DNA of 29,735 nucleotides from a bacterium (GTDB taxonomy: Bacteria > UBP6 > JAFGXH01). This document shows, piece after piece, positions 8,653-11,666 of this stretch. The stretch's first letter is position 1. Each line of letters opens with the position of its first letter. The notes below the pieces were generated by a model, which was not told where the DNA came from, did not search any database, and worked only from the letters and a program-made list of their open reading frames with translations. The position numbers and the translations under genes were made by a program. The stretch lies in NCBI GenBank assembly GCA_027064085.1, contig JAMOQH010000165.1:1-29735 (forward strand), written 5' to 3'.

Positions 8653-8681
8653 TTGAAAATAAGTTTTAGATAAACTATAAT
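8653..8681 (+). promoter_or_regulatory. Sigma-70-type promoter whose -10 box overlaps an ATG
   Basis: TTGAAA (8653-8658), a 17-base spacer and a perfect TATAAT (8676-8681). The last two bases of the -10 box are the first two of the ATG at 8680. Transcription should start near 8688, so this ATG would not be in the RNA. A GGAGG follows at 8698-8702. The next upstream TATAAT (8635-8640) has no recognisable -35. Confidence 0.55.
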
Positions 8682-9750
8682 GATTTTTATTTATCTTGGA
8701 GGATTTATATACAGTTTAGAGAAGTTTAAAAATAAGCTAACATATAAAAAGTTAAAGATACTTAAGTTAATCCTTGAAGGAAAGTCAATTCTTGATTGGG
8801 ATAGAATGTATTTTGAAACCAAGCAGGATGTCTTGGATTATCTGTTAGTAAATGAATTTAATATTAATTTAGAAAATGATAGAAAAAGGCTTGATTTTGT
8901 ATATAAAAATTCAGTAGACTACTTAAAAGATATTTATCAAATTGATGTGCCGGAATACTTTAGTAATAAAAGTATTATAGATGTTTTCTTGTTAGCATCG
9001 AAACCAGAGGCTGGAAGAGATTTTAGTGTCGCATTAGCATTATTGAAGGTAATGAATATCATAAATCATGTTGATTCTCAAGAATTAATAAGTAAATTAT
9101 CAATGGAAAGTAAAGTTATTGTTGATAAAGTTAAAAAGAAAGTTTTGAAGCATGTTAAGTTTATGCAAAATTCTGATATGTTTCCTGATTTTACTTTTGA
9201 GTGGAGTGTAAAGACAAGAGAGAGTATTATTAGTAAATTTTTAACTAAAAAGCAAGGTTTTCAGGCAAGAATTTTCGATAGAGTAAGATTTAGAGTTGTT
9301 ACTGAAAATAAACAAGATATTTTACCTATTTTATATCATCTTTTTGGTAAATTATTTTCTGTTAATAATTTGATACCTAATGAAATAAAAAATACCCTTA
9401 TAACTATAAATGATGGCTTTGATATTAATGATTTAAATAGTCTTATCGTAGAAAAAAAAGATGGAAAAAAGGATAATCAGTTTTCAGGAGAAACCTATAG
9501 AGTTTTAAATTTCATTATAGATATTCCTGTTCGAGTCGATGATATTATGATTCTTCCGGATGATGAATTATTTGCAAATCATGCTTATGTTTTGTATATA
9601 TTGACGGAAGTTCAAATTTTAGATAAAGTAACAGCTAAAAATAATGAAAAGGGTGAAAATTCACATGATTTATATAAAGAAAGGCAAAAAAAAGCTATTT
9701 TAAAGAGGCTTAACAATACTCTTTATGAGGAGAAATATGGAAATCAATAA
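8680..9750 (+). CDS. TIGR04552-type protein with RelA/SpoT-like nucleotidyltransferase features
   Basis: From memory this matches a conserved family of myxobacteria and relatives (TIGR04552/TIGR04562 type): GKSILDW (34-40), LLKVMNIINHVD (121-132), and TEVQILD plus GENSHDLYKERQKK near the end. Residues about 176-225 and 272-335 resemble the RelA/SpoT synthetase domain. IFDRVRFRVV (198-207) parallels the RelA stretch carrying the catalytic Asp (here D200). TEVQI (309-313) parallels the E-x-Q-I-R segment with the catalytic Glu (here E310), but the following Arg is missing. No reaction is proven. The frame opens at ATG 8680, yet that ATG lies inside a -10 box and has no ribosome site. GGAGG at 8698-8702 points to AUA 8707, so true translation may begin there (347 residues). 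Overlaps mpl by 14 bases. Confidence 0.8.
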   Translation: MIFIYLGGFIYSLEKFKNKLTYKKLKILKLILEGKSILDWDRMYFETKQDVLDYLLVNEFNINLENDRKRLDFVYKNSVDYLKDIYQIDVPEYFSNKSIIDVFLLASKPEAGRDFSVALALLKVMNIINHVDSQELISKLSMESKVIVDKVKKKVLKHVKFMQNSDMFPDFTFEWSVKTRESIISKFLTKKQGFQARIFDRVRFRVVTENKQDILPILYHLFGKLFSVNNLIPNEIKNTLITINDGFDINDLNSLIVEKKDGKKDNQFSGETYRVLNFIIDIPVRVDDIMILPDDELFANHAYVLYILTEVQILDKVTAKNNEKGENSHDLYKERQKKAILKRLNNTLYEEKYGNQ

Positions 9751-11131
9751 AAACATTTACATTATTGGTATTGGAGGAACATTAATGAGTAATGCTGCTG
9801 TATTACTCAAAGATGAAGGCTATAATGTATGGGGAAGCGATAATAAATTGTATCCTCCTACTTCTGATATTTTAAAAGATGCTGATATAAAGGTTATAGA
9901 AGGCTTTAATAAAAATAATATTACTGATGATATTGATATTGTTCTTGTTGGAAATATTGTTTCAAAAGGTCATGATGAAATGGAAGAAGTATTAAAAAAA
10001 GAAATAAAATACTATTCCTTTCCTAAGTTTTTAGAAGAAAACTACTTAGGTAATTATAAAAACTTAGTTGTAGCAGGAACTCATGGTAAAACAACAACTA
10101 CAACTATGGCAATTCATATTTTTGAGAAATTAGGTTTAAATCCAGCATATTTTGTTGGAGCAAAACTAGAAAATAAACCTTCAATTAAACTTACTAAGAA
10201 AAATAGCCCTTTTATTATTGAAGGCGATGAATATGATACTGCTTATTTTGATAAAGTTCCTAAGTTTTATCATTATAAGCCACTGGTTGCTATTTTAACA
10301 TCTGTTGAATTTGATCATGCTGATATTTATAAAGATATTTATGAATTAAGAACTGTATTTCATAATTTAATAGAAATGGTTCCTAAAAATGGCTTGTTAG
10401 TTTTTTGGGATGGAATAGTTAAAGTTGATTCTTTAGGTAAAAACTTTAATGGCAATAAAGTTTCCTATGGCTTTAATCCAATGAGCGATATTTATTGTTA
10501 TAGTTATGCAGTAAGAAAAGGAAAAATGGAAATAAGTGTTAAAGTTTTTAAAAAAGATATGAAATTTTCATTACCTATGTTTGGAAGGCATAATGTATTA
10601 AATTTTTTAGCTGTTCTAGGTGCTTTGTCGTATTATACTGATAATTTTTCTAAAGTTCAAAAGGCTTTAGATAGCTTTATTCCACCTAAAAGAAGGCAAG
10701 AAGTGATACTTGAAAAAAACGGTATTATTGTTATAGATGATTTTGCCCATCATCCAACTGCAATTAGAGAGACAATTTCAGCAATTAAAATGAGATATCC
10801 TAAAAATAGATTAATAACAATTTTTGAGCCAAGAAGTAATACAAGTAGGCAAAAAATATTTAAAGATGAGTATTTGGAGGCATTTTTACAGTCTTCTTGG
10901 GTTATTATAAGAAAGGTAGAGCCTCATAGGCTTATCCCCGATGAGAATTTGTTAGATGTTAGAGAGCTTTTAACTGAGTTAAAAAGTAAAAATATCAGAG
11001 CTGATTTTGGTAAAGATGGAAATGATATTTTAAGTATTTTAAAGGGGCGTTTAAGAAGAGGAGATATTATTTTAATTATGTCTAATGGTGGTTTTGATAA
11101 TATCTATACAAATATTGAAAACATCTTATAA
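9737..11131 (+). CDS. mpl: Murein-peptide ligase Mpl (UDP-MurNAc:tripeptide ligase)
   Basis: Mpl recycles cell-wall peptide by joining L-Ala-gamma-D-Glu-meso-diaminopimelate to UDP-MurNAc in the cytoplasm, using ATP. The 464-residue protein has the Mur-ligase order: an N-terminal nucleotide fold (IYIIGIGGTLM, about 7-17) with the Mpl-like SDNKLYPPTSDIL (34-46), the ATP loop GTHGKT (114-119), EGDEYDTAYFD, the central SVEFDHADIY, and the C-terminal domain with DDFAHHPTAI and EPRSNTSR. YPPTSD and EGDEYDTAYFD separate it from MurC. The start is ATG 9737, four bases after AGGAG; an in-frame ATG at 9725 precedes that site. It overlaps the upstream gene by 14 bases, so the two are translationally coupled. 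Presence of Mpl implies a diaminopimelate-type, recycled peptidoglycan. Confidence 0.93.
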   Translation: MEINKNIYIIGIGGTLMSNAAVLLKDEGYNVWGSDNKLYPPTSDILKDADIKVIEGFNKNNITDDIDIVLVGNIVSKGHDEMEEVLKKEIKYYSFPKFLEENYLGNYKNLVVAGTHGKTTTTTMAIHIFEKLGLNPAYFVGAKLENKPSIKLTKKNSPFIIEGDEYDTAYFDKVPKFYHYKPLVAILTSVEFDHADIYKDIYELRTVFHNLIEMVPKNGLLVFWDGIVKVDSLGKNFNGNKVSYGFNPMSDIYCYSYAVRKGKMEISVKVFKKDMKFSLPMFGRHNVLNFLAVLGALSYYTDNFSKVQKALDSFIPPKRRQEVILEKNGIIVIDDFAHHPTAIRETISAIKMRYPKNRLITIFEPRSNTSRQKIFKDEYLEAFLQSSWVIIRKVEPHRLIPDENLLDVRELLTELKSKNIRADFGKDGNDILSILKGRLRRGDIILIMSNGGFDNIYTNIENIL

Positions 11132-11666
11132 GTTAAAAAGTTTTAAAAAAGAAAGTGATTCAATAATCGACTTTAAAGTTGATTTAGAGATTAAAGAGTA
11201 TTTATTTTTATTATCTTACTCCATTTTTGGAGATATTTCTGAAATAATAATTCCCTACATTGAAAATTTTACCAGTAATTACCAAAGAAAAGACGAATTA
11301 TGGAAAACTACTTGTTTTGAGTTATTTATAGCTAATAAAATCGATAAATCATATTTTGAAATAAATGTTTCTCCTGATTATGGTTATAATACATATTCTT
11401 TCAATGACTATAGATATGGTATGAAAGAGGAGGGTAGTTTGTCTATAAAAAATATAGAAAAGATAAAGGATAATAATAAGTTTAACCTTAAGTTTATCCT
11501 TAAATCAGAAAATTTAATCAATATCGATAATTTACTAGTAAATATTTCTTCTGTAATAAAATATAATAATGGAAAAACAGAGCATTGGGCTTTAAACCAT
11601 TCGGCAGATAAAGCTGATTTCCATGATTTTAATTATTTTCATGATTTTACTAAAAAAAAGCATTGA
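11085..11666 (+). CDS. DOMON-like domain protein
   Basis: The protein (up to 193 residues) matches the DOMON-like family that has been linked to murB-type contexts. Markers are DELWKTTCFELFI, YFEINVSPDYGYNTYSFNDYR and GM, and a late EHWALNHS. DOMON folds are beta-sandwiches that can bind haem or sugar, but the ligand of this subgroup is not known to me. There is no signal peptide, so it should be cytoplasmic. The start is uncertain. The frame opens at ATG 11085 inside mpl with no ribosome site; GTG 11088, TTG 11094 and TTG 11115 are alternatives, and homology appears to begin only after about residue 15. In every case it overlaps mpl and is probably coupled to it. Proximity to a murein-recycling ligase may hint at a wall-related ligand. 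Confidence 0.75.
   Translation: MVVLIISIQILKTSYKLKSFKKESDSIIDFKVDLEIKEYLFLLSYSIFGDISEIIIPYIENFTSNYQRKDELWKTTCFELFIANKIDKSYFEINVSPDYGYNTYSFNDYRYGMKEEGSLSIKNIEKIKDNNKFNLKFILKSENLINIDNLLVNISSVIKYNNGKTEHWALNHSADKADFHDFNYFHDFTKKKH

Follow-up and report, generated by a model that had tools for sequence, protein, structure and literature searches.

The window analysed here, a stretch of 29,735 nucleotides from a bacterium of the UBP6 lineage (contig JAMOQH010000165.1, assembly GCA_027064085.1), carries a genuine and conserved open reading frame at 8680-9750 on the forward strand, followed by a gene for a Mur ligase. The features of this locus are as follows.

8680..9750, + strand: TIGR04552 family gene, 356 aa, with a helical N-terminal domain followed by a RelA/SpoT-type synthetase domain
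8680..9171, + strand: all-helical N-terminal domain, residues 1-164 (alignment A5 and model)
9190..9711, + strand: RelA/SpoT-type synthetase domain, residues 171-344 (model, VIA-align, hhalign and a subthreshold Pfam match)
9211..9237, + strand: donor motif K178-x3-S182-x3-K186, invariant in 45/45 members
9277..9294, + strand: D200 (Mg-binding catalytic Asp) and R205 (adenine-stacking Arg), invariant in 45/45, roles assigned by equivalence
9388..9393, + strand: K237-N238, a basic residue and an Asn at the RxKD position of Rel (K/R in 45/45, N in 45/45)
9496..9498, + strand: Y273, aromatic residue of the acceptor (G-) loop, Y in 41 and F in 4 of 45, aligned to the Tyr of GYQS
9607..9624, + strand: E310-V-Q312-I-L-D315, second metal/adenine carboxylate motif (E310, Q312 and D315 invariant in 45/45)
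9664..9678, + strand: H329-x2-Y332-K333, counterpart of HWxYK in Rel (Y332 and K333 in 45/45, H329 in 44/45)
9737..11131, + strand: mpl/murC-like Mur ligase (TIGR01081 319 bits, cut-off 388.7; TIGR01082 300 bits, cut-off 335.1)

The first in-frame ATG of the TIGR04552 gene lies at 8680 and relatives begin at about residue 18; the true start may be located downstream of this ATG, nearer to residue 18. Using the NCBIfam models the protein was identified as a member of TIGR04552 with 249.4 bits (cut-off 125), and it also passes the cut-off of TIGR04562 (239.2 versus 140 bits). The Pfam scan returned a single match, RelA_SpoT (PF04607), over residues 177-336 with an E-value of 2.5e-4, at a score of 21.7 bits that lies below the curated gathering cut-off of 27. 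All nine TIGR04552 members scanned from the first alignment were matched by the same model (best E-value 1.6e-5), a few members elsewhere exceed its cut-off (27-28.4 bits), and in most UBP6 genomes the TIGR04552 protein is its second match. In the reverse search, the TIGR04552 model matched a Rel-sized ORF (719-780 aa) in three genomes, and two of these ORFs were confirmed as Rel by PF04607 matches within the same ORF. Standard annotation leaves the similarity of this family to RelA/SpoT unnamed. Nevertheless, the similarity that a preliminary description of the DNA had seen by eye across 9205-9690 (residues 176-337) is true, and each motif named there is present.

Further evidence for this relationship comes from a comparison of profiles. 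A profile of 31 TIGR04552 members was aligned by hhalign to a profile of 18 Rel synthetase domains with an E-value of 2.4e-5 and a score of 42.8, which clearly exceeds the best score of 21.9 obtained among 100 column-shuffled Rel profiles. The hhalign probability was just 75% despite this low E-value and the stretch from R205 to Y273 is poorly aligned; the alignment sets each motif of the window protein opposite its Rel counterpart. Searches of the PDB by sequence yielded no matches for the window protein and chance matches only for a nine-member profile, and no RelA/SpoT chain was recovered by these sequence-profile searches. The structural comparison relies on an AlphaFold2 model built from alignment A3 (pLDDT 85, pTM 0.81). 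A Foldseek search of the PDB with this model placed SaRelP, BsRelP, BsRelQ and Rel on top, with a best E-value of 2.7e-6 (6fgj), and VIA-align gave Z-scores of 11.8 to RelP (6fgk_A, 152 residues, rmsd 2.9) and 11.7 to 7oiw_A. The next distinct group, DNA polymerase X, follows at a Z-score of about 8. The predicted fold is thus that of RelA/SpoT enzymes and not a different one, and together with the profile match and the invariant residues it bears out the earlier proposal of a synthetase-like protein. We conclude that the assignment of residues 171-344 as a RelA/SpoT-type synthetase domain is well supported.

The N-terminal domain contains the conserved residues S36, D39, S107, L122 and H130 (alignment A5) and was also modelled separately with a mean pLDDT of 77. 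It matched no known fold, with a best E-value of 1.0 in Foldseek and a best Z-score of 4.5 in VIA-align, which does not show that the fold is new. A degenerate HD domain was considered as an origin of this part of the protein and rejected, as the hhalign comparison with the Rel HD domain gave an E-value of 0.13 and a score of 15.9; the Pfam scan of the window protein also contained no HD family.

Within the synthetase domain, the residues K178, S182, K186, D200, R205, E310, Q312, Y332 and K333 are invariant across 45 TIGR04552 members. This set includes both D200 and E310, the two residues on which the preliminary description had staked its assignment in advance and which presumably form a catalytic Asp/Glu pair of the D264/E323 type of RelSeq. 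The donor motif R-x-K-x3-S-x3-K plus D-x4-R is incomplete, since all positions are invariant save the first Arg of RxK, which is replaced by S, N, E or P in the 45 members, a loss that had escaped the preliminary description. In SaRelP, AMPCPP is contacted by R78, K80, S84, K88, R91 and R112, of which K80, S84 and K88 bind the phosphates, and Mg is held through D107 and E174 (PMC5794853). The equivalents in FaRel2 are R64, K66, S70, K74, R77, R95, Q147, E145 and D90, with K66, S70 and K74 at the phosphates (PMC11782079). The D-x4-R spacing of D200 and R205 is the same as that of D107 and R112 in SaRelP and of D90 and R95 in FaRel2. The missing first Arg stacks on the adenine in both enzymes (PMC5794853; PMC11782079). 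Judged from these conserved positions, the ATP/Mg donor half of the TIGR04552 site looks intact.

The acceptor half presents a different picture. The aromatic residue of the G-loop, which serves the acceptor base, is present as Y273 in the window protein, and K237-N238 can be placed opposite RxKD by eye from the motif, in a stretch that hhalign leaves unaligned. The Lys and the His of the Rel motif K-x-N-G-Y-x-x-x-H are not conserved in TIGR04552, with Q or N in place of the His, and the Arg of ExQIR is replaced across the family by L, I, V, M or F, mostly L or I. In the window protein, E310-V-Q312-I-L-D315 stands where Rel has ExQIRT, so that the loss of this Arg had been described correctly (L314). 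Furthermore, the TIGR04552 proteins have an insert ahead of the G-loop and new invariant residues, namely K190, N238, N266, D315, G325, Q336 and R343. A changed GYQS loop, which had also been proposed, holds for the sub-clade of the window, where it reads Y273-R-V-L-N, but not for most of the family, which keeps Y-x-[S/A]-x-Q. In detail, this sub-clade (three UBP6 genomes and L063) is a divergent branch with a G-loop of the type Y-[RK]-V-L-N, and F-K-M-T-N in L063. Since the acceptor-side Lys and His, the Arg of ExQIR and the first adenine-stacking Arg are gone, it seems plausible from the sequence that the acceptor half has been rebuilt and that a molecule other than GTP may serve as acceptor. 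The earlier suggestion of a substrate other than GTP/ATP is likewise plausible for the acceptor side, where several residues have changed, whereas the donor site is kept.

A comparison with known enzymes places TIGR04552 next to the small alarmone synthetases RelP/SAS2 and RelQ/SAS1, which are the best Foldseek and VIA-align matches of the predicted fold and with which it shares the absence of HD, TGS and ACT domains as well as K-x3-S-x3-K, D-x4-R, the G-loop aromatic residue and ExQ. Unlike RelP and RelQ, it lacks the first Arg of RxK, the Lys and His of the acceptor loop and the Arg of ExQIR, it has an extra helical N-terminal domain and the insert before the G-loop, and identity is only about 15-24%. 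The long RSH proteins Rel, RelA and SpoT are linked to it by the profile-profile match and by H-x2-Y-K after ExQ (compare HWxYK), but TIGR04552 has no HD, TGS or ACT domain, its N-terminal domain does not match HD, and the window protein stays below the Pfam cut-off. A synthetase fold with an altered acceptor site is also found in the toxSAS proteins (FaRel2, CapRel) and in Tas1, and FaRel2 has N-terminal helices as well. In contrast to these toxins, which are recognised by a paired antitoxin or immunity gene and a patchy, mobile distribution, TIGR04552 is a single-copy core gene that has no antitoxin or immunity partner and is not part of a defence or secreted cassette.

All 28 genomes of the candidate phylum UBP6 contain one copy of TIGR04552. 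About 120 of 144 genomes of a Myxococcota set, a label that was deduced, partly from family hits, carry the family, and 140 of the 144 carry a RelA_SpoT protein. TIGR04552 is also present in Bdellovibrionales, in Kiloniella, in other MAGs labelled Proteobacteria and, in a sampling of the domain Bacteria, in certain additional families; the 14 control genomes all lack it. It is therefore a core gene of UBP6 and of most Myxococcota, and a family that is deeply conserved in bacteria yet has no functional characterisation. A mobile toxin was rejected on the basis of this single-copy distribution (28/28 UBP6 and about 120/144 Myxococcota). An origin in defence or from phages was also discarded, as PADLOC gave no match for the gene and PHROGs gave merely weak ones; viral contigs searched with the single window protein contained no relatives. 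Among the papers searched, none names TIGR04562 and one names TIGR04552, listing an indel in the gene among the mutations of evolved Bdellovibrio sp. NC01 and giving no explanation for it. Of six populations that had evolved with one prey only, a single one carried this small indel, in DOE51_RS08710 (PMC9888234); loss of the gene may be tolerated or favoured in this setting.

The Mur ligase downstream starts with an ATG at 9737 that is preceded by GAGGAG at 9727-9732 and overlaps the stop of the TIGR04552 gene by 14 nt. At 9737-11131 it stays under the curated cut-offs of both mpl and murC. The coupling to mpl noted previously exists in the window and in two relatives of the same family (L065, L066), where mpl also comes next, separated by some 125 nt, but not beyond these three genomes. 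Other UBP6 genomes show different neighbours, with gene names read by eye from the sequence: DJ-1/PfpI in several genomes, and GH57 together with glucose-1-phosphate adenylyltransferase-like (glycogen-type) genes in genus g3. The neighbours are different again in Myxococcota, Bdellovibrionota and Kiloniella. Control by mpl as a theme of the whole family was rejected, as the neighbours change from lineage to lineage, and the proposed link to wall recycling is local and weak because the mpl neighbour is restricted to the window's own family. No match in Pfam, NCBIfam or PHROGs was found for the gene that had been called DOMON-like. The 193-aa ORF after mpl (11085-11666) has no match in these three collections.

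The Rel proteins of the same genomes were compared as well. The genome of the window also encodes a complete and intact Rel (L068), and an intact-looking Rel coexists with TIGR04552 in most UBP6 families and in Myxococcota. A different situation was found in the UBP6 genus g3, where the sole long Rel of 14 genomes (L090-L103) has in all cases exchanged the catalytic Asp for Asn, the Ser of KxxxS for Tyr or Ala and the Arg of ExQIR for Cys, and has lost HWxYK. The D, S, first R and H/Y positions are thus lost together, and the synthetase domain is retained free of stops despite its destroyed site. The HD residues H, HD, E, D and N are intact in 14/14. Judged by these residues, the synthetase is dead and the hydrolase intact in all 14 Rels examined. 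A PF04607 search of the g3 genomes found just Rel and TIGR04552, which makes the latter, by its conserved residues, the sole intact RelA/SpoT-type protein found there. That the hydrolase is intact implies that its substrate is supplied in some way. Organisms with alarmone hydrolases and apparently without a synthetase have been described before, and unknown synthetases were suggested for them (Atkinson et al., 2011; PMC3153485); TIGR04552 is a candidate for such enzymes. In two MAGs of 4.1-4.6 Mb (L053 and L064 in G046 and G053), TIGR04552 is present and neither RelA_SpoT above the cut-off nor HD_4 was detected, so that either the lineage has no Rel or the MAGs are incomplete. Furthermore, extra RelA_SpoT-type proteins of 233-518 aa occur besides the long Rel and alongside TIGR04552 (L104 in G001, L119, L146 and L147).

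Taken together, we consider it probable that the TIGR04552 proteins are divergent, free-standing relatives of RelA/SpoT synthetases and act as ATP-dependent pyrophosphokinases with a rebuilt acceptor side. The fold and the conservation of the donor site suggest that the protein is probably an enzyme that transfers pyrophosphate. ATP and Mg2+ would be bound as in SAS and Rel enzymes by K178, S182, K186, D200, R205, E310 and Q312, and a nucleoside-containing acceptor, stacked on Y273, would receive the beta-gamma pyrophosphate at a ribose hydroxyl. This acceptor is probably bound in another way than GDP/GTP in Rel, in view of the insert, the lost Lys, His and Arg and the new N238, N266 and D315, and the helical N-terminal domain may regulate the activity or bind the acceptor. 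As the protein lacks the acceptor-site features of (p)ppGpp synthetases, namely the ExQIR Arg and the Lys/His pair of K-x-N-G-Y-x-x-x-H, and the activity is a predicted one, we class the window protein as a TIGR04552 member and not as a (p)ppGpp synthetase.

It could be argued that TIGR04552 makes (p)ppGpp (or pppApp) in the ordinary way, as a small alarmone synthetase beside Rel, which would be the sub-case of the favoured reading with the usual acceptor. The Tyr/Phe of the G-loop and the basic residue at the RxKD position, both of which are kept, fit this idea, and in g3, where Rel has a dead synthetase and an intact HD domain (14/14) and TIGR04552 is the sole other PF04607-type protein, the family would supply the alarmone that Rel merely degrades. 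We regard this as rather doubtful, because the acceptor-side Lys, His and Arg are lost and because an intact-looking Rel is present in most UBP6 families and in Myxococcota; the two MAGs that carry TIGR04552 without detectable Rel or HD_4 are awkward for it as well, although they are possibly incomplete. Moreover, relA null mutants of Myxococcus xanthus are not known to make detectable (p)ppGpp on starvation, which also counts against it. Another sub-case of the pyrophosphokinase reading is the pyrophosphorylation of RNA, for example of the 3'-terminal CCA of tRNA, which FaRel2 and CapRel modify, with the N-terminal domain holding the RNA. In FaRel2, a helical N-terminal extension anchors the tRNA near the G-loop and the positive acceptor patch is smaller (PMC11782079), and TIGR04552 combines a conserved helical N-terminal domain of unmatched fold with the loss of acceptor-side residues. 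Members known to modify tRNA are either antitoxin-paired toxins or defence proteins, whereas TIGR04552 is a single-copy core gene with no conserved partner and no PADLOC match, and we consider this option unlikely.

A catalytically dead protein that retains the RelA/SpoT fold as a nucleotide sensor or scaffold would account for the two missing arginines, the first one of RxK and that of ExQIR, and the preliminary description had likewise allowed for an inactive enzyme. This is decidedly unlikely, as the ATP/Mg donor site and the G-loop anchor are kept across the 45 members: nine donor, metal and pocket positions, among them D200, E310, K178, S182, K186, R205 and Q312, are invariant across phyla, whereas the truly dead synthetase domains of the g3 Rels lose several such positions together. 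Finally, the alignment of DNA polymerase X chains could indicate nothing but the general nucleotidyltransferase (polymerase beta) fold, with nucleotidyl transfer as the reaction. We consider this very improbable, since RelA/SpoT enzymes score about three Z units higher and occupy the top of both the Foldseek and the VIA-align rankings, and the conserved residues are those of the RelA/SpoT set (KxxxSxxxK, DxxxxR, ExQ and HxxYK).

In bacteria, growth and stress responses are governed by RelA/SpoT-type enzymes, which produce (p)ppGpp as an alarm signal of starvation. That (p)ppGpp is their only product is a view overturned by variants that use new acceptors (ppApp, tRNA). Against this background, we tentatively put forward the possibility that TIGR04552 forms an overlooked branch of pyrophosphokinases, which would take pyrophosphate from ATP and use something other than GDP/GTP as acceptor, and that in g3 it would be the sole intact synthetase-type partner of a hydrolase-only Rel. 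The residue conservation points to a conserved and apparently active RelA/SpoT branch in social and predatory bacteria, and if the Rel hydrolase of g3 still has a substrate, TIGR04552 would be, of all the proteins found, the one most likely to produce it.
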